Shown piece by piece: positions 5,366-29,149 of a stretch of DNA of 29,149 nt; the first letter of the stretch is position 1; each line of letters starts with the position of its first letter. The stretch covers positions 1 through 29,149 of IMG/VR virus record IMGVR_UViG_3300032073_000164; one strand, 5' to 3'. A model generated the notes under the pieces. It ran no database searches, was not told where the DNA came from, and was given only the letters and a program-made list of their open reading frames with translations. Origin of the DNA: a virus. A program made the translations under genes and the position numbers.

Positions 5366-6814
5366 ATGAGTTTAACTCCTCAATTTGGTAAAATTGTTCC
5401 ATCTCAAAGTCAAGAGTTATTGAACAGTAATTACCTACAATTTGACAGTACTGCAGGTGGTGCGTATGATGCTGAAAAAACAAGCACTTTCGCGCAACAG
5501 TACTTACCTGAAATTTATGAACAAGAAGTAGAGCGTTATGGAAACAGAACGTTATCTGGATTCTTAAGAATGGTTGGCGCTGAAATGCCAATGACATCTG
5601 ATCAAGTAATTTGGTCTGAACAAAATAGATTACACATTGCATATGATGGGTGTACTTTACCAGGTGGCGCTCCTCAGTTAACTATTAAAGTTAACAACGT
5701 AGCAGGTACAACAAACGTTATTTCACCTAGAGCTACTGTTGTTGTTTTAGATCCAGCTACTGGTCTTGAAGAAAAATGTTTGGTAACTGACTCTAATACT
5801 ACAACTGGTGTTATTACTGTACAACCTTATATAGCTGCTAATCTTAATGCTTTTACAGCTACAGGATTAAAAGTATTTGTATACGGTTCTGAATATGCGA
5901 AAGGTGGCGATGTAACAAACGCTATTGCTGGTGCTAATGCTGGCACTTCTTACGTTAGTGTTGAACCTACTTTTACTCAATTTGCTAACTCACCAATTAT
6001 ACTTAAAAGTAAGTATGTAGTATCAGGATCTGATATGGCTCAAATTGGTTGGGTTGAAGTTGCTACTGAAGATGGTGCTTCTGGATATTTATGGTATTTA
6101 AAAGCTGAGTCTGAAACAAGACTACGTTTTGAAGATTACTTAGAAATGTCTATGGTAGAAGCTGAAAAAGCAACTGGCGCTGCTGCAGCTTCTGCAAATG
6201 GTAGTGAAGGTTTGTTTGCTGCTATCAATGATCGTGGTAATGTACAAGTAGGATTTACAGCTGCTGCTGGACTTGACGACTTTGATGCTATCTTGAAAAA
6301 CTTAGATACTCAAGGTGCTATTGAAGAAAACATGTTATTCTTACAAAGACAAACTGCTCTTGACTTTGATGACATGCTAGCTTCTATTTCTGGTGGTGCT
6401 GCTGGCGGTACTGCTTTTGGATTATTTGAAAACTCAGAAGAAATGGCTTTAAATCTTGGATTTAGCGGTTTTAGAAGAGGTTCTTATGATTTCTACAAAA
6501 CTGATTGGAAATACTTAAATGATGCTTCAACTCGTGGCGCTATCGATGGAATCAACTCTATTGAAGGTGTATTAGTACCTGCTGGAACATCAACTGTTTA
6601 CGATCAAATTTTAGGAACTAACATCCGTAGACCTTTCTTACACGTACGTTATAGAGCTTCACAAGCTGACGACAGAAGAATGAAGTCTTGGTTAACTGGT
6701 TCTGCTGGTGGTGCATTTACATCTACTCTTGATGCTATGGAAGTAAACTTCCTATCTGAAAGATGTTTAGTTGTACAAGCTGCTAACAACTTTGTATTAT
6801 TCAAAGGAGTGTAA
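5366..6814 (+). CDS. Major capsid protein (HK97-fold type)
   Basis: This 482-residue protein most likely forms the icosahedral shell. It follows the portal and scaffold genes. The N-terminal arm contains FAQQYLPEIYEQEVERYGNR, a typical start of capsid proteins from Bacteroidetes podoviruses. The middle has long beta stretches (residues about 105-200) that could be an inserted beta domain. Further on are the spine-helix-like segment SETRLRFEDYLEMSMVEAEK and the C-terminal axial-domain-like IRRPFLHVRYRASQADDRRM. Alanine, glycine and threonine are frequent and codon choice is regular, as in a highly expressed protein. The gene ends just before a strong hairpin terminator, which would let the capsid message end separately. 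The start has no Shine-Dalgarno, only an A/T leader. HK97 fold is expected from the family and gene order; I cannot verify it structurally here. Confidence 0.9.
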   Translation: MSLTPQFGKIVPSQSQELLNSNYLQFDSTAGGAYDAEKTSTFAQQYLPEIYEQEVERYGNRTLSGFLRMVGAEMPMTSDQVIWSEQNRLHIAYDGCTLPGGAPQLTIKVNNVAGTTNVISPRATVVVLDPATGLEEKCLVTDSNTTTGVITVQPYIAANLNAFTATGLKVFVYGSEYAKGGDVTNAIAGANAGTSYVSVEPTFTQFANSPIILKSKYVVSGSDMAQIGWVEVATEDGASGYLWYLKAESETRLRFEDYLEMSMVEAEKATGAAAASANGSEGLFAAINDRGNVQVGFTAAAGLDDFDAILKNLDTQGAIEENMLFLQRQTALDFDDMLASISGGAAGGTAFGLFENSEEMALNLGFSGFRRGSYDFYKTDWKYLNDASTRGAIDGINSIEGVLVPAGTSTVYDQILGTNIRRPFLHVRYRASQADDRRMKSWLTGSAGGAFTSTLDAMEVNFLSERCLVVQAANNFVLFKGV

Positions 6815-9776: not shown

Positions 9777-12700
9777 ATGGCTAAATCTGAAAATACTTTT
9801 TTAAAGTCTAAGATGAACAAAGACTTAGACGCTCGAATAATTAGTTCTAATGAGTATAGAAACGCATTAAACGCTCAAGTTAGCAAGTCTGAAGGAAAAA
9901 GCGTTGGTTCTTTAGAGAATGTTTTAGGCAATAGCTTAGTGTCTAATGTAGCTGCACACACGGGAATCAGTGGACTTTACTGTATTGGTCATGTTGAAGA
10001 TGATGCTAATAGTAATATGTATTTATTTTTTACTAACTACTTAGATCCTGATCCTGAACAATTATCTTACGATCCCAACGCTAAAAATTTTATTATAAGA
10101 TATAATACATCTACTACATTAGGTTCTTTAATCACTCTAGTACAGGGTTCTTTTTTGAATTTTTCTAAAACACATCCTATATATGGTGTTAATATAATTG
10201 AAAATTTATTATTTTGGACAGATAATAGAAATCAACCTAGAAAAATAAATGTAGATTTAGCTAATCCAACAAATATTACTACACCAATTTATTACACGCT
10301 TGAAGATCAAATATCTGTAGCTAAATATAACCCCTACAGCTCAATAGAGTTATATGTTGAAAGCAAAGAATCTACATCTAATACAGTCAAGTATGAGACA
10401 ACTATGAAAGATGTTACTAGTAAGTTTTATCCTAATGGTGGTGTTGCAAAGTTAAACGCTCCCGCTGCTTTAGGGTCAACTAGTTTTATAGTTAAAAACT
10501 TAAAAGGATATATAGCTCAAGATCAATCGCCTAGCGCCTATGATGCGGGCGCTAACGTGTCTTACGTAGATACTTTAGGTAATATAATCCCAATACCTTC
10601 AGCTTACGTTAATACTGTTTCGTTCTCCGCAGCAGCTGGCGGCAATCCAGCACTATGGACTGTTAATATATTAGGAGCAACTATACCCTCTGCATTAAAC
10701 ACTAATACAGAAATAGTTTTTAACTACAATAAATATTACGAAAAAGATTTTGCAGGTGATGATACTTATTTAGAAGATAAGTTTGTAAGATTTGCTTACA
10801 GATTTAAATTTGTAGATAATGAATATTCTTTATTCTCAACTTTTACGCAGTCTGCATTTATACCTAGACAAGATGGTTATTTCATGTACGTAAAAGATGA
10901 TGCAAGGGGAATGCCTGAGCTAGACGATCAATCAGAAGCCTATAGAAGTACTATAGTCTCTTTTGTAGAAAACAAAGTAGATAAAATACAATTAAGAATA
11001 CCATTACCTTTTAAAAATTATGAATTAAAAGATAAACTTCTATTAAAAGCTATTGATATATTATATAGAGAATCTGATCAAACAACTGTAAAAGTAATTG
11101 ACACAATAGAAGAGCAAGAAATTTTTAATCAATCAGCTAACTGTACTGTAAGAACAACTACCGCGTCTAGTAACAAAGTTTTAGTAGATAATGTAAAAGG
11201 AGGTATAAATGTAGGTAGTTACGTAACGGGTTTTGGTATAACTACAAATATAACAGTAACTGCTTACCAACCTGATAATCCAAATATTAACCCTAGTACA
11301 TCTGGCGAAATAACTTTAAGCTCAAATGTTTCTTTAGCAGCCAATGTAGAATTAACTATAGGTGAACCTGAGTATTTTAAATATGATTATCAGTCTCAAA
11401 AACCTTTTAAAACTTTACCAGAAAAAGACTTAATAAGAGTTTATGATAAAACGCCTGTTAGAGCTTTAGCTCAAGAAGTTGCAGGAAATAGAGTTATATA
11501 TGGTAATTTTTTAAACAAGCACACAGCACCTAAATCTATAGATTATCAAACCGCTATTACTACTAAATCTGAATTCAACACATTAGAATCTCAAGGCGAT
11601 GCTGTCGGTCCTATTGCAGTTGGATCTACTACAATTGTTTTGACTAATATAAAAAGAGGAGATGTAGTTGTTGGAATGGTAGTTATATGTGATGGAGTAC
11701 CGGAAGGTACTTTAGTTACAAGCGTGAACATCGCAGCTAACACTACTATAACAATAAATAATCCAACTACAGCTGTAATAGCTAATTTGCAATTAGTTTT
11801 ATTAGTTCCAGGTAGTGATATACAAAAAACAACCAGCAAAATAGAGTATCCAAATTCTAGTGTAAAAACAAATAGAAACTACCAAATAGGTATTGTATTG
11901 TCTGATAGATACGGTAGACAATCAGGAACTATTTTATCAAATAACCAAACAAGTATAACGCTTCCCAATGGAGCAAGTTTTAAAGGTGATACTGCTTACT
12001 CTCCTTATAATGACGAAAACATAGATAACGATAGTTGGCCTGGAAATTCTATAAAAGTTTTATTTAATAATGTTATAGGACAAGAAAAAAATCCTCAACT
12101 AGCACTGCCAGGAGTTTACAACAGCGACACCTCAAGCCTTGATTACAATCCATTAGGTTGGTACAGCTTTAAAGTAGTTGTAAAGCAAACAGAGCAAGAT
12201 TATTATAATGTATATCTTCCAGGTATTATGTCTTCTTATCCTGAAGATCAATCGTTAGAGATTGGCGAAACTTCTCATGCTGTTTTAATAAGTGATAATA
12301 TAAATAAAGTACCAAGAGATTTAGTTGAAGTAGGACCGCAGCAAGATCAATTTAGATCATCAGTTACACTATTTGGTAGAGTTCAAAACTCTTCAACAAA
12401 TGTTTCTACAGCACTAACAAACTTAGGGTTAAGTAATGAACAGTATTACCCAGGTAGAACTTCTGATTTTGCTTCAACAGTTGCAACTGTTAGAGATTTA
12501 TTTAACTATGATTTTAGTGAACCACCTCAGCCTGATTTTTTCCCTCAATTTTACTCATTAGATTCAAACCCATATATAGCAAGAATAAACACAGCTAATA
12601 AAATAGGTCAAATTTCTAATGTTAATTTTACGTCTGTTAGTGGGCTAGTTTCTACAGCAAACACAGCCGGCTCAAGTACTATACAACTAGGTAACATTTC

Positions 12701-15157: not shown

Positions 15158-17023
15158 ATGGCAGCATCAGTAGAAGTTAAATATTTTAACACTTTTGTTC
15201 TTAAAAAGACTAACAATGACGAAGAGCCTATATGGAATGGATCTTTCGGCATACCTCAAGATATGGGCGGTTATCCTGTTTTAACTGGTATAACTGGTAA
15301 TAACAACTGGAATATAGAAGAATCTAGAATTAGAGGTGGTTATAATAATACTACTATAGATTTTGGCGTGAAAGCATATATAGTAGATGAAAGTAATACT
15401 GGATCTTTCAGGTTGAGTTCATTAATATATTCAGGTATATTTAATTCAAGAACTGGTATAAATCAAACTAATGTATTTTCTGTTGGAGAAGATATAACTA
15501 AAACGGCTGATCCAGCAAACGCTTCTATACAAAAATTATATGCCGAAGACACTAATTTAATTATTTTTCAAGAAAACAAAGTTAGTAGAGCCTTAATAGA
15601 TAAAGACGCTATATATAGCGCTGAAGGCGGTGGAACTGCAGTTAGTTCTTTCACTACTGTTATAGGTCAAATAGTCCCATATCTAGGTGAATATGGTATA
15701 AGCAAAAATCCTGAAAGCTTTGCAGTTTATGGTTATAATAAATATTTTTCTGATAAAAACAATAATTCAATTTTAAAATTAAGCAACAACGGTATTTCTG
15801 AAATATCTTCTTATGGAATGAGGGATTATTTTAGACATGAATTAAATAGAATAGGAAATCAAGGTATGGTAATTGGTGGTTATGATATACACAATAATCA
15901 GTATTTAGTTTCTACTCAATTACGTATAAATTCACCTCAAAAAACAGAAGGCTTTAAAACGGTATCATACGATGAACAACCTAATGGATGGGTTAGCTTT
16001 TTTAGCTATACGCCAGAACAAATGCTTAGTTTAAAAAACAAGTTTTACACTGTTTTCCAAGGTGGTATATATGAGCATTATTCTACTTCTGTTAATAGAG
16101 GTAGTTTTTACAGCGTAGAAACACCAAGTGAAGTAACTGTAGTTTTCAATGCCGCCGCTGACAGATCTAAAACATTTAAAACTGTATCGTACGAGGGAAG
16201 CAATGGGTGGACTCTTAAGTCTTTATTTTCAGACTCAACCGGTGTAGATTATCAACCAAACGTTATAACTATTTCTAATATTGATGAAGCTAGTTCAATT
16301 AAAAGTTATTACGAAGGCGAATACATACAAACTTCTTCAAGCGCTTTATGCTCGCAGACAGTAACAGGTACAAGTGTAGTAGTATATTCTAACATTGATA
16401 TACCAATTGGATCTTCTATTAATAGTGATTTTATAACTATTCCAGCAGCTACTACCGTAACAAACCAAGTTGAAATAATAGGCTTTGCCTCAGCAGACTC
16501 AATAAGCAACACGGTTACGCTAACAGGCGCTAGTTATGTTGTTCCAGTAGGAACAGAATTATCTGGACCCGGTATAACACCAGGAACAATTGTCACCTCT
16601 TACAACTCTACTACTGGTGTTTTAGTCACTAGTCAAAATATTCAAGTAAATGTTGGTAGTACTATAACTTTTGTAGGATTGAGAGTTGTATTTGTAAATA
16701 ATTCAACTTCTTTTGTTTTAAATGCTATTTTAAATTTCTCTAGTGTCACAGATAGAAACGATTATTTAAGTGTGTTTGGAACAGAGTATCCTCCATATGA
16801 TAAACAAAGAGTAGGGTTTTGTAGAAAAGAAAACAAATATGTAGCCAATATTATAAATAACAGTGCTCCAGCTGCTGGAGAAATTATATTTGGAGATTCA
16901 ATGAGCGGCGTAAAAGGCTATTATACTACCGCAACTATATCTACAGATCAAACTACAGATAAAGGAGGTGAAAAACAATTGTTTAAATTAAGCAGTAATT
17001 TTATTTACAATAATGGATATTAA
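15158..17023 (+). CDS. Second tail-tube/muzzle-type protein
   Basis: This 621-residue protein probably joins the preceding one in the same tail structure. Residues about 45-175 carry the conserved blocks IEESRIRGGYNNTTIDFGVK, SLIYSGIFNSRTGINQTN and LIIFQENKVSRALIDKDAIY, which look like beta-propeller blades. Residues about 175-380 continue with repeated aromatic-rich strands (FKTVSYDEQPNGWVSFF and, later, FKTVSYEGSNGWTLKSLF, an internal duplication). Residues 398-508 hold two inserted Thr/Val/Gly beta modules like those in the upstream protein. The C-terminus closes with VGFCRKENKYVANIINN and GGEKQLFKLSSNF. These blocks are familiar from the C-terminal half of muzzle-type proteins, so the muzzle may be split over two genes here. 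The ATG follows an A/T leader 35 bases after the preceding stop. The family call is recalled, not searched. Confidence 0.72.
   Translation: MAASVEVKYFNTFVLKKTNNDEEPIWNGSFGIPQDMGGYPVLTGITGNNNWNIEESRIRGGYNNTTIDFGVKAYIVDESNTGSFRLSSLIYSGIFNSRTGINQTNVFSVGEDITKTADPANASIQKLYAEDTNLIIFQENKVSRALIDKDAIYSAEGGGTAVSSFTTVIGQIVPYLGEYGISKNPESFAVYGYNKYFSDKNNNSILKLSNNGISEISSYGMRDYFRHELNRIGNQGMVIGGYDIHNNQYLVSTQLRINSPQKTEGFKTVSYDEQPNGWVSFFSYTPEQMLSLKNKFYTVFQGGIYEHYSTSVNRGSFYSVETPSEVTVVFNAAADRSKTFKTVSYEGSNGWTLKSLFSDSTGVDYQPNVITISNIDEASSIKSYYEGEYIQTSSSALCSQTVTGTSVVVYSNIDIPIGSSINSDFITIPAATTVTNQVEIIGFASADSISNTVTLTGASYVVPVGTELSGPGITPGTIVTSYNSTTGVLVTSQNIQVNVGSTITFVGLRVVFVNNSTSFVLNAILNFSSVTDRNDYLSVFGTEYPPYDKQRVGFCRKENKYVANIINNSAPAAGEIIFGDSMSGVKGYYTTATISTDQTTDKGGEKQLFKLSSNFIYNNGY
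16349..16483 (+). repeat. Beta module copy 6 (in the second muzzle-type protein)
   Basis: Residues 398-442. VTGTSVVVYSNIDIPIGSSI is followed by a short turn and AATTVTNQVEIIG. This is a shortened copy, the weakest of the set, placed directly before copy 7. Confidence 0.35.
16484..16681 (+). repeat. Beta module copy 7
   Basis: Residues 443-508. SNTVTLTGASYVVPVGTELS leads to GPGITPGTIVTSYN and then TTGVLVTSQNIQVNVGSTIT. It matches copies 1 and 2 well, in particular the V-G-x-x-[VL]-x-G-x-G-I-x-x-G-T centre. Confidence 0.55.
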
Positions 17024-17041
17024 TAATAAAAATAATAAACT

Positions 17042-17707
17042 ATGGCACTACCCGCAGTAATAGGAATGGGATCTAGCTTGATAGGTGGTCTATTTGGAGC
17101 TAATTCAGCTAAGAGGGCAGCAAAAGCAGCGGCTAGAGAAAGGAGAAGACTTCAAGCTAAACTAGAAAGGCTAGAAAACAATAGACAAGAAATTATAAAT
17201 CCTTATCAAGGTTTTGAAAATTTAACTAGCATGCTTTCTAATCCTTTCGCAAATTTAGGAGTTGCGACTCAAGCGGCAGAAATAAAAATAGAGCAGGCAG
17301 ATATATCTTTAGCAAACACATTAGACACAATGAGAGCTACTGGGGCAAGTGCCGGCGGAGCAACTGCATTGGCGCAGGCTGCTCTTAGAAGCAAACAAGG
17401 TGTTTCAGCTAGCATAGAACAGCAAGAAGCTCAAAACGAAAAACTAAGAGCGCAAGGAGAACAACAACTCCAAAGACAACAGGTTTCTGAAGAAATAAGA
17501 ATGCAACAAGCTGGCGCAGCTGGAAAACAATTTATGTTTGGAGCTAAAGAGCAAAGAGAAATGCAGGCACTTGATAGAACAGCATCTCTATTAGGTCAAG
17601 CTAAGCAAGCAGAGCAACAAGCTAAAGCTGATCAAACACAGGCTATAACAGGTATGTTTGGTAGCTTAGCACAATTAGCGCCTAGTGCATTTGGTAAACA
17701 AGGATAA
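17042..17707 (+). CDS. Internal virion/ejection protein, T7 gp14-like
   Basis: This 221-residue protein is probably packed in the head and ejected with the DNA, in the role of T7 gp14. The N-terminus is a glycine-rich hydrophobic segment (VIGMGSSLIGGLFGANSAKR), followed by a strongly basic helix (AAKAAARERRRLQAKLERLE). The central and C-terminal parts are alanine- and glutamine-rich coiled coil, with the RATGASAGGATALAQAALRS motif that is common in these small internal proteins. The protein ends in GMFGSLAQLAPSAFGKQG, a second mildly hydrophobic stretch that could also touch membrane. It lies between the muzzle genes and two larger internal-protein candidates, matching the gp14-gp15-gp16 logic of T7. 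No enzymatic motif is visible. The start has an A/T leader and no Shine-Dalgarno. Confidence 0.72.
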   Translation: MALPAVIGMGSSLIGGLFGANSAKRAAKAAARERRRLQAKLERLENNRQEIINPYQGFENLTSMLSNPFANLGVATQAAEIKIEQADISLANTLDTMRATGASAGGATALAQAALRSKQGVSASIEQQEAQNEKLRAQGEQQLQRQQVSEEIRMQQAGAAGKQFMFGAKEQREMQALDRTASLLGQAKQAEQQAKADQTQAITGMFGSLAQLAPSAFGKQG

Positions 17708-17708
17708 A

Positions 17709-18809
17709 ATGGAAAACAAAAATATAACAACAAATCTATTTATAAAGCAGTTTAATCAAAGTAACGCTATAGCTTATAATAATGATTATACTTCTCAAAG
17801 TTCTGATTATAATTTTAAAATATTAGAAGTTGCTTATGCTGATACAGCTGCGAAATATGCGGCTATAAAAATGGATATAAAAAACAATAACTGTACTACT
17901 GCTAACTGTTATTATGAAAATTTAAAAATAAAACAATTAGAAGAAGCTCCAGCATTATCTATTGATTTTATTCAAAACGTTATGTCAGAGTTATCCACTA
18001 CAGATACTCCTAATTATGACGTAAACAATGACTATAGATACTTAGTTGCTAATTCTATGTTTACATCTACACCAGGTTTTTCCAAAACAGATGGCTATAA
18101 TTTAAATTTGTATTTAAATGAAGATGGTACTCAAACTATTGTTTTTGAAGGTCCTTTATTTGAAAATAATCCTTTAGTTATAAATAGCGCTGCTTTAGGA
18201 TCAATATTAGATAATGAAATATCTCTAGTTGCAGATACTCCTGATATTGAAAAAGAAATGTTAAGACTTTTAACCGAAGTAGGTTTATTTGCTCAAAGTG
18301 ATATTTTAGATAATGGTGTTTTATCTCCTAACGCTAAGATATCAGAAGAGTTTATTGCTAAAAACGCTGATGGTAGTTTTGATTATATGATTGTAGATAT
18401 TGGAAACGGTAAAGGTAGAAATACTTTAAAGTTTGATTTAGATAAAATAGAAAGAAAAGTAGATCCTTTTATAAATGCTGAAGTAGCTGGTTTATTAAGT
18501 TCGGAGCAAGAAACCGTAGCCGCTTGGAACGTTTATATAGCTAAAGGAACTAGCGTTGAAGAAGACGATCAAATGGTTCAAAACGCAAACGCGGGGTCAG
18601 ACGCTTGGAGTTATAAAGAAGATCTTCCATTATCTCAAGATAAAAAAATATTGTTTCAAAGCAAATATAAAGAATACTTTATGAACAATTATTTAAAGCA
18701 GTTCACAATTAATCAACTACCTACTGTCCAAGAGGACGCTGCGGTGTTTGATTTAGAAGAAGCAAGATCTGCTAAAGCACAAAAATTTATTGACGATAAC
18801 AATTTATAA
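17709..18809 (+). CDS. Unrecognised virion-region protein, possible internal protein
   Basis: I do not recognise this 366-residue protein. I chose ATG 17709 because it sits one base after the preceding TAA, as is usual in this block; an in-frame start at 17685 would overlap the upstream gene by 23 bases. The sequence is acidic and asparagine-rich, with a first helical third (for example VAYADTAAKYAAIKMDIKNN) containing a cysteine pair. A middle beta-rich part includes LNLYLNEDGTQTIVFEGPLF, and a helical C-terminal third ends in EEARSAKAQKFIDDNNL. No signal peptide, membrane span or catalytic motif is visible. Lying between the gp14-like gene and the giant gene, it could be the middle ejection protein of a three-part set (compare T7 gp15), or a chaperone or tail component. 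The gene itself is secure; the role is a guess from position. Confidence 0.65.
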   Translation: MENKNITTNLFIKQFNQSNAIAYNNDYTSQSSDYNFKILEVAYADTAAKYAAIKMDIKNNNCTTANCYYENLKIKQLEEAPALSIDFIQNVMSELSTTDTPNYDVNNDYRYLVANSMFTSTPGFSKTDGYNLNLYLNEDGTQTIVFEGPLFENNPLVINSAALGSILDNEISLVADTPDIEKEMLRLLTEVGLFAQSDILDNGVLSPNAKISEEFIAKNADGSFDYMIVDIGNGKGRNTLKFDLDKIERKVDPFINAEVAGLLSSEQETVAAWNVYIAKGTSVEEDDQMVQNANAGSDAWSYKEDLPLSQDKKILFQSKYKEYFMNNYLKQFTINQLPTVQEDAAVFDLEEARSAKAQKFIDDNNL

Positions 18810-18820
18810 AATATAATTAA

Positions 18821-21800
18821 ATGAGTCATATTACGTTATTACAGTATATTACACAGCTTCAAAATTTAGGTCTTACGCAGCCACAAATAAACGAAGCAGC
18901 GCAAGAGTGGAAAAAAATCCATACACCTAAAAAAGTTGAGGAAAAACCTAAAGAGCAAGTTGAAGTATTTGAAGAAGTTAAGGTTTCTGAAGAGGGAAAG
19001 CCACCTGCTGTTGCGGAGACGGGTACGACTGTAGCAGCGGAAACAAACGAAGTATCCAATTTAAAGTCTTCAAGTGGAGAATTTTCATCAACATTTATCC
19101 CAGAAAAAATTAAAACATCAGAACCTACTGGCTTTGGCGAGTTAAAAGGTTTTGGTAGCAATGAATATAACGCTATATCACGCAGTATAGATAAAGAAAG
19201 ACAAGAGCAATATGACAAATTAACCGTTATTGCTACTCCTGATCAAGTTTATAAAACAAAAAATAAAGAATATAAATACAACTTTAGAAATAAAGATGAT
19301 GGAACTAGTGAAATAGTTTATTATTCAAGAAACTCAAGTGATGATAAAAATAAAGAGCCAGAAGCTTTTGTAGAAATAGAAAAAAATACTGTTGATTATA
19401 TAAGTGCTTCAACTACATTTCAGCACATGGATCAAAGTATTATGGATCAATATGAAGCGGGTAATGATTTGCTTAGTTTATATGAAAAAAATCCTGATTA
19501 TATAGCTCAACTAACAGAAATAAGTGAGTCTACTAATTCTGATTTAGAAGCTCTTGATTTAGAATATGCTGAAATAGCTAATGAGTTTCAAAACTTAATT
19601 AAATTAAATGACGAAGATAGAGCCTCTGCTGTAACAAAAGCAACCGAGTTTGTAGATAATAAAGAGTATGTAGAGAAACAAAGACTTCAAAAAGAAAAAT
19701 TTAATAAAGACTCTTCTTATGGAGAAGAAGTTTGGAACAATTATCAAAAACATAGAAAGCAGGGTAAAAACAACAAACAGTGGAATGAGCTTTATCCAGA
19801 AATGGAATTGGTTTGGACTCAAAAATTTGGGTTACAAGTTACAAAAAAAGGCTTTAAGCGAGAGGTAACAAAAATAAATGAAGATTGGCAAAGTTTGTAT
19901 GACAGTGTTATACCATCTGTAGTCAAAGCAGCTGATGGTATAAATAACGCTGAACAATTACTTAAATCACAACAAATAACAGTAGGAGGTAAAAAATATA
20001 ACACTCAAGATTATATTAACCAGATTATGGTTGATACTAAAGCTAGTGAAATATCTACAGAACTTCTTATAGATAAAAATGAAGATTTTATAAAAGAAAG
20101 TGGTTTTGATATTAGAAGTGAAAAAATAATTCCAGCAATTAAACATTTTCTTTCAAATCCTTTGCAAGCTGGTCTAGCTGGTATTTTAGCTACTCCAGAA
20201 ATAATAGATAGATCTGATAAGCAAAAAGAAATGGAGCTTTATCAGATAAAAAGAAAAGAAGCTTTAGGTAAAATTACTAGCAAAGAAGGTTCTATAATGC
20301 AGTTTCAAACACAAGCTGAAAACAAAAAGAAATTACTTCAAGCTCTATCTAAACAAATAGCATCTGGCACATATGTTACAGAAGATCAAATAAAAAAAGC
20401 AAATAGACAATTAGCTGCAATAAATCAAACTCACAATCAAATAATTGATTTACAAAAGAAAAAATACAAAGAACTTGATGATCTTCTTGTTGAAAACAAA
20501 AATGCGGATGAACTTATAAATGATTTAAGTAGAAACTATAATTTACTTCCTATAATGATTGATAACACAGTAAACTCTTTTACTGAAATGGGTCAAGGTG
20601 TAGAAGAAATTATATATAGAGTGGCTACAGCTCCTAGAGAAATAGTAGCTGCTCTTGACGAGAAGTTTGATACTAAAAAATTTAGCGCATTTGATAATGT
20701 TTGGAACTACAGTAGAAACTTAATACTAGATACTTGGTCTAAAAAAAGAGATGTTGCTAATAAAAACGTAGATAAATTTCAGAAAGATTTAATGGACGGC
20801 GTTGCTGACAGTATGAGCATAGAGGATATTAGAGATGCTGATGATTTTGGTAGATACTTGTTTGCTACAACTGGTGCTATAATTCCTCAAATAGGTGTTA
20901 TGGTTGCGACTGGTGGGTTTGGAGTTGGTATTGTAACTGCTCAAGCTGGCGGTCAAAAATTTAAACAGTATGAACAAGAAATGCTTGAAAGTAAAAAAGC
21001 TTTCGATGCTTGGAATAGACCTGAAACAGAAAAAGGTGGTTCAAAACCAGTAAAAAAACCGGGTGAAACTGATGAGTATTACGCTTATAGATTAGAGGTT
21101 TGGAAATCTAAGAAACCAGAAGAAATAAACTACAATCTAACACAGATGTGGGGTGGTGCTCTTACTATGATGGGCGCTGAAGCTGTTATGGGTAGATTAA
21201 TATCTTTACCTATGATAAATAGAGCTAAAGCATTCACACCGTCAAGAGTTAAAAGAGGCTGGACTAAAGCTTATATAGATAGTTTAAAATCAAGAGCTAC
21301 TACGTACGGCGTAGATGTTGTATCAGAAGGTCTTGAAGAGGTTTTTACAGAAGTAGCTGCAAATCTTTACGATAGAAAAATACTAGGTAAAGATGTTAAT
21401 CTTTTTGATGGCGCTCCTGATAATTTCTTTTCTGGATTATTAATGGCAAATGGTTTTAAAACACCTGCGCTTTTTGCACCATATGTTAATGCCGCATCTA
21501 CACCTGGTGATAAAATAAACGTGCAAGAAAGACAAAGCTTAATAAAAAGTAAAATAAATTCTTTAGCACAAAATCCTAACATGTCTAAAGAAAGTAAACT
21601 GGCTTTAGAAACAGAAATAGCTGATTTAACATTAGAGTTAAACAATGATATCGTTTTAGTGATGAACAGATATAGCGATATGCCTAGAGAGCAAATAGAT
21701 GAGTTAGGTAATATAGAGCAACAAACATTTCAAATAGATCAACAAATACAAACTATACAATCAGACACTAATTTTGTATTTGGTAAAGAAAAAGAAATAG

Positions 21801-24800
21801 AGCAGTTAAAAAATAAAAGAAATAATTTAACTGGTAAAAAGAACTCTTTATTAGAGCCTTACGTAACAAAAGATGCAGAAGGTAGAATTACAGGCGGTGG
21901 TTTTATATCACCTAAAACAAGACAAATAGATGCTGGGGCTAGAGTAATAGCTGGTCAATTAGAGGGTGTTGGTGTTGAATCAGTAAGCGATACTGAAAGT
22001 TTATTAAGTGTAGTTGCTACGGTTGAATCAAGTGGAGGTGAAGTTATAGGCTTACAAAGAGACGCAGATGGTAACGTGTTACCAGCAGAACAACAAGGTT
22101 ATGGTGTTATATCAAGACTTCCAGATGGTTCAAGACAGGTTATAATAAACCAAGTTTCAGCAGCTAAAGATAACATAGCAACTACAACTCAGCATGAAGT
22201 TTTACATGCTTTTTTAGATCAAATATTTGTTAACGACAGCGCCGCTAAAACCAAAGCTGGTAAGGCTTTAAATGATTTTTTACAAAGTGATAGCGTTAAT
22301 TTAGATCAAAACCTACAAAATAGATTTGATCAATACAAGGCGGATTTTGATGCTATAATGAAAAATCCAAATAGTGATTTAAACGATAAACAACAAGCTG
22401 AAGAGCGTTATTTTGAAGAAATAATAACACTTACAAGTGAAGGTTTAACAGCTAATCAAATACAAGAAAATGCGGCTGTTGAGGCAGAAGCAGAAACGGT
22501 CGGAGATGTTCTTAGTGATGTTTATTCTGAAAACAATCAAGCAGCTTTAAATATAAGCTTTGACACTGGTAAAGGTGTCTTAGATTTTGTTAGAGGTTTT
22601 AACCAAGCGGTAGAAGGCGGTAAAGGTTTAACACAACAACAGCTTGATTTAGCAAGTTCTGAAGGTAGTACAACTCAACAAGATAAAGCTAGAACATCAG
22701 AACAAGCTCCAAGAAACAAAAAGTTAATGCAAGACATTGTTGAAGGAGACATTGGTGCCGCAACTACTCTTGTTCAAGAAAACTCTGGTTTAATATTAGA
22801 TTTATTAAAGTTTAATCCTGATGTAGCACAGCAAAGTGGTGTTGATTCAAATGACGTACTTCAAGCCGTAACAGATATGATGACGCCTGGTATGGTTGAT
22901 ATAACTTTTAAAGGTAGAAAAAAATCACTTGCAGAAGAATATGCACAAGATAAAGGTGAGGTTAGTACGTTTCTAGGAAGGTTAGGAGTAAGAGCAGCTG
23001 AAATATATACAGCAGCAGGTCTTGATCCAAATAAATTTGTAACTGAAAGTACAAGCGGCTCGGAGGCTAGACAAATTGCTAGTAAAAAAACAACTACTAC
23101 AAAGCCAAAAGCAAGGGCTAGAACAACTCCTAAGGCATCTAGAAAGTATCCTAGTACAATATTAGGTAATTTAGGTGTTAGCACAAAGGCTGAGGTAGAC
23201 GCGCTGTTTGAAGAGGCTATTGCAGATGACATTGCTAACTTTTATAAGGGTGAAATAAAAGAGTTTAAAGATATTAAAGACATAGGACCTGCGGTTGCTG
23301 CTTTAATGGAAAAAGCTACTGGCTTGAAAGCTAATAGGTTTTCTAAGAAGAATCAAAATATAATGAAAGGCGATGTTGTGTCAGGCGCTGTTACGGCTTT
23401 ACAACAATTTTTAAATATAAACGCAGAGGCTGACTTTGCGATGCTGGCAGAAGCTGCAAACATAGAAGGTAAATCAACTTCTATACCTGGTAAAATATTA
23501 GAAGCTTTATTTACTAAAAACTCTAAAGACAAATACGTAAGAGACACTAGAAAAGGTTTAAAAGATTATAAAAATATAATTGACGCTTTAAATCCTGAAG
23601 CTAAAAAAGCTAAAGGTATGGATGCTGTGTATAGATCAAGTAACGCTCAAGCATTAAAAGGCTTGGCTAACTTATCTCTTAGAAACTTGATATTTGAGCA
23701 AGCTGTACCAGATCCTGTAGCTAGAACAAGAACAGGCGCTAGGTTTAGTAATAAAATAATAAAAGAAGCTGTAGATGAAGTAGAAAACAAAGGAGCTAAG
23801 AAGTTTTTAGAAAAAACTTTATCTGGAAATCTCGATGCAGATCAAATTGCGCAAGAAATAAACAAAATTGAAGACATAGCAAAAGTTTTAGGTATTGATT
23901 TTACAGACGTTGTTGATTATCTTTTTACAAATGAAAAAAGATATAAAGAATTAAGAAGTAAATTTGATGTTAGAGTTGGAGGCAAAAATGAAATATCATC
24001 TTTAGCTAATGCAGCTAGACTTAAAAAAGGTTATACTTCTTTAATCAAAGGTATGATACCTAAAGGTAAAAGTTTTTCTGATTTACCTGTGTCTTTTCAA
24101 ATGGCTTTAATGAAAACAGTTGGATTTGGTGATGCTAGAATTAAAATAGGAGGAAAACCTTTTACGTTACAAGAGTATGGTTTAAAAAGAGGAGAGTACG
24201 GTAAATTAATGCAAGCTGTTTTTGGTAAAGATGCCTTAATTGGTACTGGAACAAATTTAGGTACTAGAGATAATGTTTATGCTCCAAGTAATTGGGGTGA
24301 AAAAGGATTTAGAGGTAAGGTTGAAAAAATAGCTGATTCATATAATAATGGTGATATAACTTTAGACGAAGCACGAGCTAAAGTAGAAGATCTTTTAACT
24401 CCAGATAAAGAAACAAATATTGATGATGTTTTAATTGCGAATCAAAGAGCAGTTTCTGACACATATGTTTCTTTAATAAATATGTTTGCAGCTGATCCTA
24501 CTAACGAAAATTTTGCAACAATAATAGATATATTAGAATCCCAAGTAAATAGAGCAACTGGTATATTTAAAGGTTTAATACCTGTTACAAGTTTTAGTAT
24601 AAAACCAGAAAAAGGTACTACTAAGGGTAAAACAGCAAACAAGAGAATGCATAACGAGCATTTAGTAGAGCTTTTTAATGCTAATAAGAATTTTTTAAAC
24701 ATATTAGACAAGCTTAGAAAAGGCACAATAACTAAAGAAAAAGCTATATTTGACGCTAAAGTTAACGCTGCTAGTCTAGAGCAAGCTGTTATCTCAGAAA

Positions 24801-27800
24801 GAATGAGAGTAGAAAAAGATGCAGATGGTGCGTCTGTAAGAAGTTTTGCAGATCCTTTAACTTTTTTAGGCAAAGATGCTCAGTTTCAAATACCTATTGG
24901 AACACGAAGACTGCCATCAGGTAGAATTTTTACAGGTACAAATTTAGCTGAATTTATAGCTCAAGAACTAAGTGAAAAACAAGCTAAGATAATTTCTATT
25001 GCTTCAGATGCAAGTTTAAGTCCTGAGGGTATTATTGTCAAAAACATGATCAATAATAAATCAACTTATCAAGGAGCTAAGAAGCAAAACACAGAAATGA
25101 TGCCTGGACCTCTAGGTTACGCTAGAGCTAGTCAAAAACAAAAAACAAATCAAGACATAGTAGGTGAATTAAGCACTCTTGATCAAGCTTTAAATGAAGG
25201 TAGAAAAATAGACAAACCTGTTAGAAAAATAAGAGTATTTGATTTTGATGACACGCTAGCTAGATCTAATAGCAAAGTTATCGTTAATATGCCTATATCT
25301 AGCATAGATAAAGACATGCTTGATATTGTAGCTAGAAGAAAGTTTAAAAAAGAATTTGAAAACTTGCCTAGTAGATTACAAGGTTTTAATAGTCTTAACG
25401 ATTCGCAGAAGCTAGAAGTTTTAAAAGAAGTTCCAGGAGGAACAAAAGAGATAAATGCTACACAGTTTGCAGAACAAGCGGCAGATCTTGAAGCTCAAGG
25501 TGCTACATTTGACTTTAGTCAGTTTGAACAAGTCATTGATGGTAAAAAAGGACCACTATTTGATGTTGCTAAAAAAATAGCAGACAAGCGTGGTACAGAA
25601 GATTTATTTATATTAACAGCAAGACCACAAACTGCTGATGGTCCTATTAGGGCTTTTATGAAAGCGTTAGGTGTTGATATACCTTTAGGTAATATAACTG
25701 GTTTAGGAGATGGCACAGCTGCGGCTAAAGGTAGATGGATAGCTGGTAAAGCAGCTGAAGGCTATAATGATTTTTACTTCGCAGATGACGCTGGTAAAAA
25801 CGTTAAAGCAGTTAAAGAAGTATTAGATCAAATAGATGTTAAATCTAAAGTACAACAAGCTAGAGCTAGTAAAAAGCAAACGTTTGATACTGTTGTAAAT
25901 GATATGATACAAGACTCTTCGGGTATTGAATCATATAAAACTTTTTCTGCCGCTAAAGCTAAAACAGTAGGTAGAGATAAAGGTAGATTTGACTGGCTTA
26001 CAATGGCTTCATCAGCTGAAGACTTTAAAGGTTTATTGTATAGCTTGTTGGGTAATGGCAAAAAAGGTGAAGCTCAGTATGAGTTTTTAAAAACAAACCT
26101 TATTGATCCATATAATAAAGCTGAAGATTCTATAACTCAAGCTAAAATATCTGCTGCTAATGATTTTATGGCTTTAAAAGAGCAGTTTCCAGGTTTACCT
26201 AAAACATTAGAAACTGAAACAGGTGTTGGTAAATTTACATATCAGCATGCACTTCGTACTTACATGTGGACCCAACAAGGTATGTCAATACCTGGTTTAT
26301 CAAAAACAGATGTTAAGAAACTTAATAAGTTTATAACTGATGACGCTAAGCTTCAGGCTTTTGCGGATCAATTAATATCAATACAAAAAGGTAAACCATA
26401 CCCTAAGCCCGGCAAAGATTGGTTAGGTGGTAATTTAACTACAGATATTATTGGCGGTATAAACGATGTTAACCGTAAAGAATATCAACAAGAGTGGCAA
26501 GAAAATGTAGATATTATATTTTCACCTGAGAATTTAAACAAAATGGAAGCTGCTTACGGTACTCGTTGGCGTAAAGCTTTAGAGAACACATTAACTAGAA
26601 TGAAAGCAGGTACAAACAGACTTGGTTATAACGATCAAACAAGCGCTGTACTTGACTGGGTTAATAATTCTGTTGGTGCTGTAATGTTTTTAAATACTAA
26701 ATCTGCGCTACTTCAAACTATATCTGCTGTAAACTTTATAAATTGGGGTGATAATAATATTATAGCCGCAGGTAAAGCGTTTGCAAACCAAAAACAATTT
26801 TGGGGAGACTTTATGACGCTAATGAACTCTGATTACTTAGTACAGCGCCGTAATGGTCTTAAAATAAATGTAAGTGAATCTGAAATAGCAGACGCTGTAA
26901 AAGATTCTAAAAATAAAGTTAAAGCCGCTATAGCGTTTTTACTTAGTAAAGGTTTTGTACTTACTCGTTATGCTGATAGTCTTGCTATAGCTTCTGGTGG
27001 TGCTACTTTCTATAGAAATAGACTTAATAAGTATATTAAAGAAGGCATGGATCCTAAACTAGCTCAAGAGCAAGCGTTTCAAGATTTTAGACAAATAGCA
27101 GAAGAAAGCCAACAATCAAGTTCACCTGATAAAATTAGCATGCAACAAGCATCAGCTGCTGGTCGTGTTATACTTAATTGGGCTAATACTCCAATGCAGT
27201 ATGTAAGAATACAAAAACGTGCATTGCAAGATATAATAGCGGGTCGTGGTGACGCAAAAGTTCATATGTCTAGAATAGCTTATTATGGTGTTATTCAAAA
27301 CTTAATATTCAATGCTATGCAGCAAGCCTTATTTGCAATAGGATTTGGTGATGACGAAGAGGACGAAGAAAAAAGCGCAGCTAAGAAAAAACAAGATAAC
27401 AATAGAATAGCTAGAGCTGCTAACGGTATGATTGACTCTCAGTTAAAAGGTTTAGGTATTGCTGGTGCAGGTATGGTCGCTGTTAAGAATACTTTAATGA
27501 AAATATATGAAGAGTCTGGTAAACAAAGACCTGAGTATGAGAAAGCGGCTATAGAGGCTTTAAGTTTCTCACCAGCTATTAGTTCTAAGTATAGAAAAAT
27601 AGTAGGTGGTTTAAAAAGCTTTAGTTGGAATATGAAAGAGATAAAAGAAAAAGGTTTTAGTCTTGACAACCCAGCTTATCTAGCAGGTGCTCAAATTATA
27701 ACAGCAGTAACAAATATACCTATTGATCGTGTTATAAAGAAAGCTAATAACATAAGAGGTATATTAAGCGAGCAATCACAAAAGTGGCAGAAAGTTCTTT

Positions 27801-28063
27801 TGTTTGGTGGTTGGAGCACTTGGGACGTTGGCTTGCCTTATTATGGTGGTTGGGATAAACCAGTTGAGCCTACGGAAGCAGAGCGTAAAAAGCAAGAGAT
27901 TGATGTTATGAAACGTGATACTAATACAGCTGAGCAAACGCAGATGCTATTAGATCTAGGTCTTGACAAAAAACAAATTAAAGCATTGCGTTATGAAGAC
28001 GCTAGAGTTAAAAAAATAATTGAACTACAAAACAAAAATAAAGATGGCAAAAATAAAACCTAA
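18821..28063 (+). CDS. Giant internal virion protein with metallopeptidase and HAD-phosphatase domains
   Basis: This 3080-residue protein fills almost a third of the window. Residues 1-110 are disordered and Glu/Pro-rich; about 115-650 are long charged helices. Residues about 677-709 (GAIIPQIGVMVATGGFGVGI) and 777-797 are hydrophobic and glycine-rich. Residues 1125-1129 are HEVLH, a zincin zinc-binding motif, with a possible third ligand in EERYFEE (1194-1200). A basic Thr/Pro/Arg linker lies near 1419-1445. Residues about 2137-2345 contain a full HAD set: FDFDDTLA (Asp 2141 and 2143), ILTARP (Thr 2266), AAKGRW (Lys 2303) and FADDAG (Asp 2322 and 2323). A further hydrophobic stretch (YYGVIQNLIFNAMQQALFAI) precedes an acidic patch, and the C-terminus has LLFGGWSTWDVGLPYYGGW. 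It resembles the polyvalent-type giant proteins of marine phages, thought to be packaged and ejected. The targets of the two enzymes are unknown. Confidence 0.8.
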   Translation: MSHITLLQYITQLQNLGLTQPQINEAAQEWKKIHTPKKVEEKPKEQVEVFEEVKVSEEGKPPAVAETGTTVAAETNEVSNLKSSSGEFSSTFIPEKIKTSEPTGFGELKGFGSNEYNAISRSIDKERQEQYDKLTVIATPDQVYKTKNKEYKYNFRNKDDGTSEIVYYSRNSSDDKNKEPEAFVEIEKNTVDYISASTTFQHMDQSIMDQYEAGNDLLSLYEKNPDYIAQLTEISESTNSDLEALDLEYAEIANEFQNLIKLNDEDRASAVTKATEFVDNKEYVEKQRLQKEKFNKDSSYGEEVWNNYQKHRKQGKNNKQWNELYPEMELVWTQKFGLQVTKKGFKREVTKINEDWQSLYDSVIPSVVKAADGINNAEQLLKSQQITVGGKKYNTQDYINQIMVDTKASEISTELLIDKNEDFIKESGFDIRSEKIIPAIKHFLSNPLQAGLAGILATPEIIDRSDKQKEMELYQIKRKEALGKITSKEGSIMQFQTQAENKKKLLQALSKQIASGTYVTEDQIKKANRQLAAINQTHNQIIDLQKKKYKELDDLLVENKNADELINDLSRNYNLLPIMIDNTVNSFTEMGQGVEEIIYRVATAPREIVAALDEKFDTKKFSAFDNVWNYSRNLILDTWSKKRDVANKNVDKFQKDLMDGVADSMSIEDIRDADDFGRYLFATTGAIIPQIGVMVATGGFGVGIVTAQAGGQKFKQYEQEMLESKKAFDAWNRPETEKGGSKPVKKPGETDEYYAYRLEVWKSKKPEEINYNLTQMWGGALTMMGAEAVMGRLISLPMINRAKAFTPSRVKRGWTKAYIDSLKSRATTYGVDVVSEGLEEVFTEVAANLYDRKILGKDVNLFDGAPDNFFSGLLMANGFKTPALFAPYVNAASTPGDKINVQERQSLIKSKINSLAQNPNMSKESKLALETEIADLTLELNNDIVLVMNRYSDMPREQIDELGNIEQQTFQIDQQIQTIQSDTNFVFGKEKEIEQLKNKRNNLTGKKNSLLEPYVTKDAEGRITGGGFISPKTRQIDAGARVIAGQLEGVGVESVSDTESLLSVVATVESSGGEVIGLQRDADGNVLPAEQQGYGVISRLPDGSRQVIINQVSAAKDNIATTTQHEVLHAFLDQIFVNDSAAKTKAGKALNDFLQSDSVNLDQNLQNRFDQYKADFDAIMKNPNSDLNDKQQAEERYFEEIITLTSEGLTANQIQENAAVEAEAETVGDVLSDVYSENNQAALNISFDTGKGVLDFVRGFNQAVEGGKGLTQQQLDLASSEGSTTQQDKARTSEQAPRNKKLMQDIVEGDIGAATTLVQENSGLILDLLKFNPDVAQQSGVDSNDVLQAVTDMMTPGMVDITFKGRKKSLAEEYAQDKGEVSTFLGRLGVRAAEIYTAAGLDPNKFVTESTSGSEARQIASKKTTTTKPKARARTTPKASRKYPSTILGNLGVSTKAEVDALFEEAIADDIANFYKGEIKEFKDIKDIGPAVAALMEKATGLKANRFSKKNQNIMKGDVVSGAVTALQQFLNINAEADFAMLAEAANIEGKSTSIPGKILEALFTKNSKDKYVRDTRKGLKDYKNIIDALNPEAKKAKGMDAVYRSSNAQALKGLANLSLRNLIFEQAVPDPVARTRTGARFSNKIIKEAVDEVENKGAKKFLEKTLSGNLDADQIAQEINKIEDIAKVLGIDFTDVVDYLFTNEKRYKELRSKFDVRVGGKNEISSLANAARLKKGYTSLIKGMIPKGKSFSDLPVSFQMALMKTVGFGDARIKIGGKPFTLQEYGLKRGEYGKLMQAVFGKDALIGTGTNLGTRDNVYAPSNWGEKGFRGKVEKIADSYNNGDITLDEARAKVEDLLTPDKETNIDDVLIANQRAVSDTYVSLINMFAADPTNENFATIIDILESQVNRATGIFKGLIPVTSFSIKPEKGTTKGKTANKRMHNEHLVELFNANKNFLNILDKLRKGTITKEKAIFDAKVNAASLEQAVISERMRVEKDADGASVRSFADPLTFLGKDAQFQIPIGTRRLPSGRIFTGTNLAEFIAQELSEKQAKIISIASDASLSPEGIIVKNMINNKSTYQGAKKQNTEMMPGPLGYARASQKQKTNQDIVGELSTLDQALNEGRKIDKPVRKIRVFDFDDTLARSNSKVIVNMPISSIDKDMLDIVARRKFKKEFENLPSRLQGFNSLNDSQKLEVLKEVPGGTKEINATQFAEQAADLEAQGATFDFSQFEQVIDGKKGPLFDVAKKIADKRGTEDLFILTARPQTADGPIRAFMKALGVDIPLGNITGLGDGTAAAKGRWIAGKAAEGYNDFYFADDAGKNVKAVKEVLDQIDVKSKVQQARASKKQTFDTVVNDMIQDSSGIESYKTFSAAKAKTVGRDKGRFDWLTMASSAEDFKGLLYSLLGNGKKGEAQYEFLKTNLIDPYNKAEDSITQAKISAANDFMALKEQFPGLPKTLETETGVGKFTYQHALRTYMWTQQGMSIPGLSKTDVKKLNKFITDDAKLQAFADQLISIQKGKPYPKPGKDWLGGNLTTDIIGGINDVNRKEYQQEWQENVDIIFSPENLNKMEAAYGTRWRKALENTLTRMKAGTNRLGYNDQTSAVLDWVNNSVGAVMFLNTKSALLQTISAVNFINWGDNNIIAAGKAFANQKQFWGDFMTLMNSDYLVQRRNGLKINVSESEIADAVKDSKNKVKAAIAFLLSKGFVLTRYADSLAIASGGATFYRNRLNKYIKEGMDPKLAQEQAFQDFRQIAEESQQSSSPDKISMQQASAAGRVILNWANTPMQYVRIQKRALQDIIAGRGDAKVHMSRIAYYGVIQNLIFNAMQQALFAIGFGDDEEDEEKSAAKKKQDNNRIARAANGMIDSQLKGLGIAGAGMVAVKNTLMKIYEESGKQRPEYEKAAIEALSFSPAISSKYRKIVGGLKSFSWNMKEIKEKGFSLDNPAYLAGAQIITAVTNIPIDRVIKKANNIRGILSEQSQKWQKVLLFGGWSTWDVGLPYYGGWDKPVEPTEAERKKQEIDVMKRDTNTAEQTQMLLDLGLDKKQIKALRYEDARVKKIIELQNKNKDGKNKT

Positions 28064-28376: not shown

Positions 28377-28804
28377 TGGCTTATAAACAAAAAACAGATT
28401 CGCCTTTAGGTCATTGCTGGGCTAATGTAATGCACACGCAGCCTTGGAATAAGATGCGGGAAAGAACAGCAGCTGCGGCGGGCAGAGGCACAGGTAACGA
28501 TGCTAGTCTTGCTGAAGCTGAAAAGAAAAGAAAATCTCCTTTTAATAAAGAAGTTAAACCAGTTAAAGCAAAAGGCGGAGGCACAAAAAAAGTTTGTTTA
28601 CCTAAAGCCAAAATTGCTAGTATGAGTAAAGAAGAAAGACAAAAAGTTATTAGCGCTAAAAGATCTGCTGGAGCTAAAGGTAAATACAAAAGATCTAGCA
28701 AAAGCAATGTCAGCGGAACAAGTAGTGGCGGAAGTTTAAAAACTTGGGTTAAACAAGACTGGAGACAAGTAGGTGATCCATCTAAAAAATGCGGAGAAAA
28801 ATGA
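28376..28804 (+). CDS. Small lysine-rich protein of unknown function
   Basis: This is a 142-residue, very basic, low-hydrophobicity protein starting at ATG 28376, which shares one base with the preceding TAA. An in-frame GTG two codons earlier is less likely. Features in order are DSPLGHCWANVMHTQPWNKM, a Lys/Pro-rich linker, KKVCLPKAKIASMSKEERQK, AKGKYKRSSKSNV, and the end LKTWVKQDWRQVGDPSKKCG. The K-V-C-L-P...S-M-S-K-E-E-R and W-x-x-x-x-W blocks recur, from memory, in small proteins of marine viruses and may correspond to a domain of unknown function. Four cysteine or histidine positions could bind a metal, but no clear zinc-finger spacing is present. It may act together with the preceding basic protein. 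The last base pairs overlap the holin start as ATGA. Confidence 0.65.
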   Translation: MAYKQKTDSPLGHCWANVMHTQPWNKMRERTAAAAGRGTGNDASLAEAEKKRKSPFNKEVKPVKAKGGGTKKVCLPKAKIASMSKEERQKVISAKRSAGAKGKYKRSSKSNVSGTSSGGSLKTWVKQDWRQVGDPSKKCGEK

Positions 28805-28962
28805 GTTTATCAGATATGAAGCTATACGCTATGAGCGTAGGTACACTAGGCGTTACAACCTTTACACAAATAGAAGACGGTTTAAAAATTTTATTGTTAC
28901 TTATAACTATAGGATATACAATATCTAAATGGGTTAACATTAAAAAAGAAAACGAAAATTGA
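28801..28962 (+). CDS. Small holin-like membrane protein
   Basis: This is a 53-residue gene starting at ATG 28801 in an ATGA overlap with the preceding stop, with a weak GGAG about four bases upstream. The protein begins MSLSDMKLYAMSVGTLGVTT, has a short polar break (FTQIEDG), and then a strong membrane span (LKILLLLITIGYTISKWV) ending in the charged tail NIKKENEN. One sure and one possible span, a tiny size, a basic tail and a position immediately before an endolysin are the marks of a holin, which would form holes in the inner membrane to time lysis. Its stop overlaps the endolysin start. Holins share little sequence, so this rests on topology and context. Confidence 0.75.
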   Translation: MSLSDMKLYAMSVGTLGVTTFTQIEDGLKILLLLITIGYTISKWVNIKKENEN

Positions 28963-29149
28963 AATATTTTAAGCTAGAAGAGTTTGATTCACCTGATGAA
29001 CCAGGTAGCGGTAAGTATATGAATAAAGAAATAATATATATGCTAGATGCGGTAAGAAAAGAATATGGTAAACCTATTAGAGTAAATTCTGGTTATAGAA
29101 CAAAAGCTAGAAATAAAAAAATAGGTGGTGTTGCAGATTCTTCACACGT
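28959..29149 (+). CDS. Endolysin, M15-type peptidase, 3' end missing
   Basis: This is the first 63 residues of a peptidoglycan peptidase; the gene runs off the right edge. The start is TTG 28959, which overlaps the holin stop and gives MKYFKLEEFDSPDEPGSGKY, the usual opening of phage M15_3-family endolysins; no better ATG exists nearby (the next is after about 20 codons, inside the domain). INSGYRT-like IRVNSGYRTKARNKKIGGVA and then DSSH follow. His in DSSH (29146-29148) is expected to be a zinc ligand in the S-x-H-x(6)-D signature; the remaining ligands lie outside the window. The enzyme would cut cross-linking peptides of the cell wall once the holin opens the membrane. Confidence 0.88.
   Translation, partial: MKYFKLEEFDSPDEPGSGKYMNKEIIYMLDAVRKEYGKPIRVNSGYRTKARNKKIGGVADSSH

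Follow-up and report, generated by a model that had tools for sequence, protein, structure and literature searches.

A 3080-residue putative ejection protein with zincin and HAD phosphatase-type domains in the structural gene block of an uncultured virus

The DNA analyzed here, referred to as the window, comprises a virus record of 29,149 bases and is probably a fragment. Read 5′ to 3′, it encodes a terminase, a portal, a putative scaffold, the major capsid protein, connector and tail genes, a 221-aa gene, a 374-aa gene, and a giant open reading frame (ORF) with which the structural gene block ends (Table 1). The last three genes are referred to below as the triad. The annotated GTG start of the middle triad gene (17685–17711) is probably wrong, because initiation at ATG 17709 gives 366 aa instead of 374 aa and this is the length in most relatives. 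Two short ORFs lie 3′ of the giant gene, and after them come two ORFs that were classified by eye as holin-like and peptidase-M15-like. The holin-like ORF (53 aa, 28801–28962) and the peptidase-M15-like ORF, which begins before 29149 and is cut by the window end, are arranged as in a lysis cassette (28801–29149).

Table 1. Features of the window and module map of the giant protein (positions in the window; residues are those of the giant protein).
Feature	Position	Strand	Remark
Major capsid protein	5366..6814	+	Marker uniting the clade; in 27/27 relatives' records tested, 60–82% identity
Small triad protein, 221 aa, gp14 position	17042..17707	+	Family homologous to phi38:1 gp99 type
Middle triad protein, gp15 position	17685..18809	+	Position of phi40:1 gp100
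Giant ejection/polyvalent-type protein (putative), 3080 aa	18821..28063	+	Intact ORF, ATG 18821 to stop 28063
N-terminal head, residues 1–36	18821..18928	+	Block exchanged among relatives
Membrane-type module, residues ~520–944	20378..21652	+	Homology to phi38:1 gp101/phi18:3 gp123
Zincin (gluzincin-like) domain, residues 1030–1265	21908..22615	+	Alignment of 33–34 domains
HEVLH putative zinc-binding/catalytic motif, residues 1125–1129	22193..22207	+	Conserved in 34 domains
E1200, candidate third zinc ligand	22418..22420	+	Invariant in 34 domains
E1946-H1947 motif, conserved middle region	24656..24661	+	Invariant in alignment A8
HAD phosphatase-type domain, residues ~2130–2355	25208..25885	+	Predicted catalytic residues invariant in 63 sequences
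HAD cap-region insert, ~46–48 residues	25283..25426	+	Motif I–II spacing
C-terminal helical module (C-module), residues 2400–3080	26018..28060	+	75–93% identity among close relatives; fold matches

A preliminary description of this DNA had reported a 3080-residue protein with glycine-rich hydrophobic segments, a zincin motif, and a full HAD site. Its frame is uninterrupted, and a glycine-rich hydrophobic stretch, the zincin motif, and the HAD site, the last with motifs I–IV, were recovered. The glycine-rich hydrophobic stretch (residues ~680–715) lies inside the membrane-type module, where the hydropathy profile of the giant protein contains its one modest membrane-type segment (residues 680–698, mean 1.44). 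No significant match was obtained for the whole protein in Pfam, PHROGs, or NCBIfam, or for either of its enzyme domains in Pfam, PDB, or NCBIfam.

Relatives of the HAD region are encoded by at least 476 IMG/VR contigs, as found by a pattern scan with this region, a method that under-samples distant relatives. The best 80 of these at least 476 contigs were examined; in all 80 the HAD lies within a long ORF, mostly some 830–1,170 residues ahead of the ORF end. When 50,697 phage records were searched with the HAD region, one weak partial match was returned, and a search of the same records with the HAD and C-module of a relative returned none. The window's capsid protein shares 53% identity with that of MW202828, 47% with that of Maribacter phage Panino, 41% with those of the Flavobacterium elemo phages, and 36% with that of Cellulophaga phi38:1. 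Several window genes are also colinear with phi38:1 gp91–gp97, and the homologue of phi38:1 gp97 (1324 aa) is seemingly two genes here (9777–15122, 1781 aa, and 15158–17023, 621 aa), with extra segments inserted. The clade is one of uncultured marine podoviruses that probably infect Bacteroidota, a host assignment based on the relatives and on contigs of metagenome-assembled genomes (MAGs) and single cells. Other labels on some MAG contigs (Aliivibrio, Woesearchaeota, and Ilumatobacteraceae) may be binning errors.

The placement of the giant protein in the virion derives from MS/MS of homologues in cultured phages, as stated in GenBank notes. The phi40:1 record attaches the note "annotation based on experimental MS/MS proteomics analysis" to gp099, gp100, and gp101, and the phi18:3 record does so for gp120, gp121, and gp123. 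In both phages, these positional homologues close the same gene block in the same position as the window triad. The membrane-type module of the giant protein matches residues 226–629 of phi38:1 gp101 by blastp (E 1e-10), while hhalign of the family's module against phi38:1/phi18:3 (gp101/gp123) gives 99.1% (E 7.5e-19) and that of the giant's module against elemoF gp88 gives 97.9%. For the 221-aa protein, the family matches phi38:1-type gp99 (hhalign probability 94%, E 1.4e-7); the middle protein shares the position of phi40:1 gp100 but has no detectable sequence homology. The virion or ejection position proposed in the preliminary description is thus supported by MS/MS-annotated positional homologues, with homology for the small and giant proteins, and absence from virions, which had been named as evidence against that proposal, is contradicted at the level of the homologues. 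It is very likely, judging from this homology, that the giant protein is packaged inside the particle of the window phage, and it is probably driven into the host cell along with the DNA. That it is instead a non-virion protein of late infection or lysis merely adjoining the structural genes, as the holin-like gene and peptidase-M15-like ORF shortly downstream might suggest, is highly improbable given the MS/MS annotation of homologues in two isolate families.

The cultured counterparts also indicate which parts of the protein belong to the virion role. In phi38:1 and phi40:1 (gp101; Pervagoviridae) and in phi18:3 (gp123; Pachyviridae), the homologue is likewise encoded last in the structural block, preceded by genes for a small and a middle protein, and has a membrane-type module homologous to that of the giant, but it is shorter (1691 aa for gp101 and about 1935 aa for gp123, versus 3080 aa), and no homology to the C-module was detected by sequence. 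The phi38:1 gp101, which is identical to the phi40:1 copy at nearly every position, contains neither an HExxH nor a HAD motif. The virion role therefore appears separable from the enzymes, which resemble cargo mounted on a scaffold of the virion. Flavobacterium phage elemoF gp88, a structural protein of 3694 aa, is a giant in the same position and carries an HEIFH zincin homologous to that of the window protein (blastp E 2e-4), but differs from it in having a DUF3293 domain and no HAD motif that could be found.

The triad resembles T7 gp14, gp15, and gp16 in its order of small, middle, and largest protein and in that the largest member carries an enzyme, a transglycosylase in T7 gp16 as opposed to peptidase and phosphatase motifs here. 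Its sizes (221, 366/374, and 3080 aa) follow the order of podovirus ejection operons (PMC8954989). In that work, small ejection proteins span 181–240 aa, a range that includes the 221-aa protein, and the largest gp16-like protein listed has 1337 aa, less than half the length of the giant (PMC8954989). The T7 parallel drawn in the preliminary description stands for the order of the genes and for the position and size of the gp14-like gene, but not for sequence: the 221-aa protein is of gp99 type with no detectable homology to T7 gp14, and hhalign of the window proteins against T7 gp14, gp15, and gp16 gave probabilities below 1%. T7 gp16 is best regarded as an analogue of the giant by position and mosaic enzyme content and not as a detectable homologue. 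A second comparison is offered by the virion RNA polymerase of phage N4, a protein of about 3500 aa that is the last in a similar series (MCP … 16.5 kDa, 66 kDa, giant). In the polyvalent protein survey, it is described as having an N-terminal injection region, a catalytic middle, a C-terminal encapsidation region, and an HExxH domain (PMC5512222). No polymerase was identified in the giant protein, however, and hhalign of its N-terminal module against residues 1–2342 of the N4 polymerase gave a probability of 0.2%.

The first of the two putative enzymes is the zincin. An HExxH motif arises in 0.35% of shuffles of the giant protein, which is histidine-poor. Across 34 zincin domains, whose median pairwise identity is 21%, there is no variation at E1126, H1129, or E1200, while H1125 is kept in 97%, and N1110 and R1168 are each kept in 94%. 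As read from this alignment, the combination of HE..H with E1200 conforms to the pattern expected of a gluzincin-like active site. Peptidase_M78 is the commonest Pfam match among the zincin domains of members (4/33, best E 0.0011); the window domain itself matches no Pfam family. In two members the motif departs from the pattern, as EEIFH with the first histidine gone (L003) and as HEKAGH (L006), which indicates that zincin activity is not essential everywhere. The giant of MW202828 (L014, 3859 aa) has two HEFGH zincin motifs.

Between the zincin and the HAD, a third conserved region with invariant residues R1605, E1946-H1947, and R2030 (about 23633–24913) may be another enzyme; in 91 of 92 sequences, an EH pair precedes the HAD at a distance of no more than 420 residues. 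Structure prediction by segments had been suggested as a check: the AlphaFold2 model contains an α/β domain in the HAD region, the C-module yielded fold matches, and a PDB fold search with the model of the zincin and middle region (mean pLDDT 55) returned no significant match.

In the HAD, motif I (DFDDT, residues 2141–2145, 25241–25255) proves little by itself, as a loose form of it occurs in 4.9% of shuffles, but motifs II–IV (T2266, K2303, and D2322/D2323) follow in order. All seven residues D2141, D2143, T2145, T2266, K2303, D2322, and D2323 are invariant in 63 relatives. At the level of domains, Foldseek matched this region best to the HAD domain of Lem4 in the PDB (probability 0.82, E 1.0). 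The near-invariance of the predicted catalytic residues contradicts the possibility, raised in the preliminary description, that the domains are dead across the family, and both the zincin and the HAD are likely to be catalytic on the strength of their conserved active sites.

The cap region of the HAD, to judge from the spacing of its motifs, is an insertion slot in which other domains are nested. Motifs I and II lie about 78 residues apart in most relatives, 124 in the window protein, 209 in L097, and 280 in nine measured sequences. In about ten relatives (L006, a P1-type giant, L055–L061, L063, and L119, the tenth such sequence, from a MAG contig), a zeta-toxin/AAA_33-like P-loop kinase with the Walker A motif GGPGAGKT lies between motif I and the remaining HAD, whose catalytic residues are kept despite the insertion; Pfam identified the kinase in both members scanned. 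An ART-like segment was seen by eye in the cap slot of L097 (2968–6024), for which Pfam gave no ART match. Zeta-type kinases are known in polyvalent proteins, although no description of one nested inside a HAD was found in the main text of the survey (PMC5512222). It is conceivable, if rather speculative, that the HAD serves as a docking slot for nested enzymes and that the particles of some phages would carry a kinase-inside-phosphatase into the host, perhaps a pair that heals ends or removes signals to counter early host defense. The nearest short HAD relatives (L130–L133) are standalone proteins of 168–193 aa on MAG and single-cell contigs of marine Bacteroidota, and one of these proteins (L132) has bacterial-type genes around it, a setting that suggests capture of the HAD from a host.

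Between relatives, the modules of the giant are unequally conserved. L017 shares 93% identity with the window protein over the C-module and 87% over the HAD, as against 22% over the zincin, whereas L005 and L034 are 86% identical to it over residues 1–36 and about 21% directly after. To judge from these identities, modules upstream of the HAD and C-module are swapped between close relatives. GNAT-like segments were noted by eye in the variable middle of the giants of L004, L029, and L127, the last of which has kept the zincin and the C-module with only a remnant of the HAD. In L001 (15690–15870) and L035 (9930–10010), the giant frame is broken near the border of the HAD and C-module; natural gene splitting was rejected here, as the breaks resemble the single-base insertions or deletions in short runs that sequencing errors typically produce.

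Could the enzyme-like domains be folded spacers without a catalytic role in a purely structural or ejection protein? The phi38:1 gp101 works without enzyme domains, and the degenerate or altered zincins of L003 and L006 and the HAD remnant of L127 are in keeping with such a role. Spacers would not be expected to keep catalytic residues, however, and these are invariant in the zincin while its surroundings drop to about 21% identity, as are all HAD motifs, which makes this explanation very unlikely.

The remaining module is the C-module. Sequence searches with it linked nothing outside the clade, and hhalign against isolates gave no significant match, the best being MW202828 (E 0.011, probability 4%). 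A fold search with the model of residues 2110–3080 returned close relatives among uncultured viruses and, among phage proteins, Foldseek matches with E-values from 1e-4 to 1e-13 (probability 1.00) that include several proteins named "large polyvalent protein associated domain" and "ART-PolyVal-like" and a structural protein of Tenacibaculum phage Gundel. The TM-scores of these matches are modest to low, which points to a shared helical design and not to close kinship, and the link to polyvalent proteins comes from the fold search, with none by sequence. Like the polyvalent proteins described in the survey, which combine several enzyme domains per chain, a zincin-type peptidase, and helical domains and are encoded beside virion genes (PMC5512222), the giant carries two unrelated, predicted enzymatic domains with conserved motifs on one chain and, as with phage-type polyvalent proteins, is encoded beside late and virion genes. 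It is built in the same manner, with enzymatic cargo flanked by a membrane-type module on the N-terminal side and a helical one on the C-terminal side. The earlier label "polyvalent-style" is therefore supported by architecture and by the large polyvalent proteins of phages among the fold matches of the C-module. No Pfam model of polyvalent type matched the giant, which belongs with these proteins by architecture and fold and not by Pfam model.

Taken together, the giant is interpreted as a virion ejection (pilot) protein with two active enzyme domains, with a probability of roughly three in four. In the proposed mechanism, the chain would be stored in the particle and, in a partly unfolded state, would exit by way of the tail along with the other two triad proteins. 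Crassvirus work supports such an ejection, ahead of the DNA, of large cargo proteins that are partly unfolded (PMC10172136). The front part would then insert in the envelope, which it may span, and the chain would refold. The zincin would cleave its own chain, with host proteins as possible further targets, and the cut would free the HAD phosphatase, whose presumed substrate is a host protein, a nucleic-acid end, or a nucleotide to be dephosphorylated before phage gene expression. The rear part may help to package the protein, a role ascribed to the C-terminal region of the N4 polymerase.

Within this mechanism, self-processing and attack on the host both fit the zincin of the giant. In the polyvalent survey, self-processing is given as a leading role of polyvalent metallopeptidases, with host attack as an alternative (Iyer et al., 2017; PMC5512222), and self-cleavage is considered at least as likely as host attack here. 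That self-processing by the zincin is the giant's main job has a little short of an even chance. Alternatively, both enzymes may be early effectors, the ejected zincin cleaving host defense or regulatory proteins and the HAD dephosphorylating a host factor or defense signal. The giant is of the ejected type by position, polyvalent proteins have been proposed to act early against the host (PMC5512222), the zincin and N-terminal modules have diverged strongly and been exchanged among relatives in a way that would fit an arms race, and relatives carry nested kinase and ART-like cargo. Divergence of the zincin is also expected from co-evolution with its own chain, however, and with self-processing listed as a leading role in the survey, the effector explanation is possible but doubtful.

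As an ejection protein with enzymatic cargo, the giant would add the HAD phosphatase to the enzyme classes named in the main text of the founding polyvalent survey, from which it is absent (PMC5512222), and the kinase nested inside the HAD phosphatase of some relatives is an unusual enzyme architecture. One virion protein is found in a cultured version without these enzyme motifs (phi38:1 type) and in an enzyme-loaded ocean version, and comparing both would show what is gained from bringing enzymes in with the DNA. With it, a large group of uncultured marine phages whose hosts are probably Bacteroidota is tied to a concrete, testable delivery machine.
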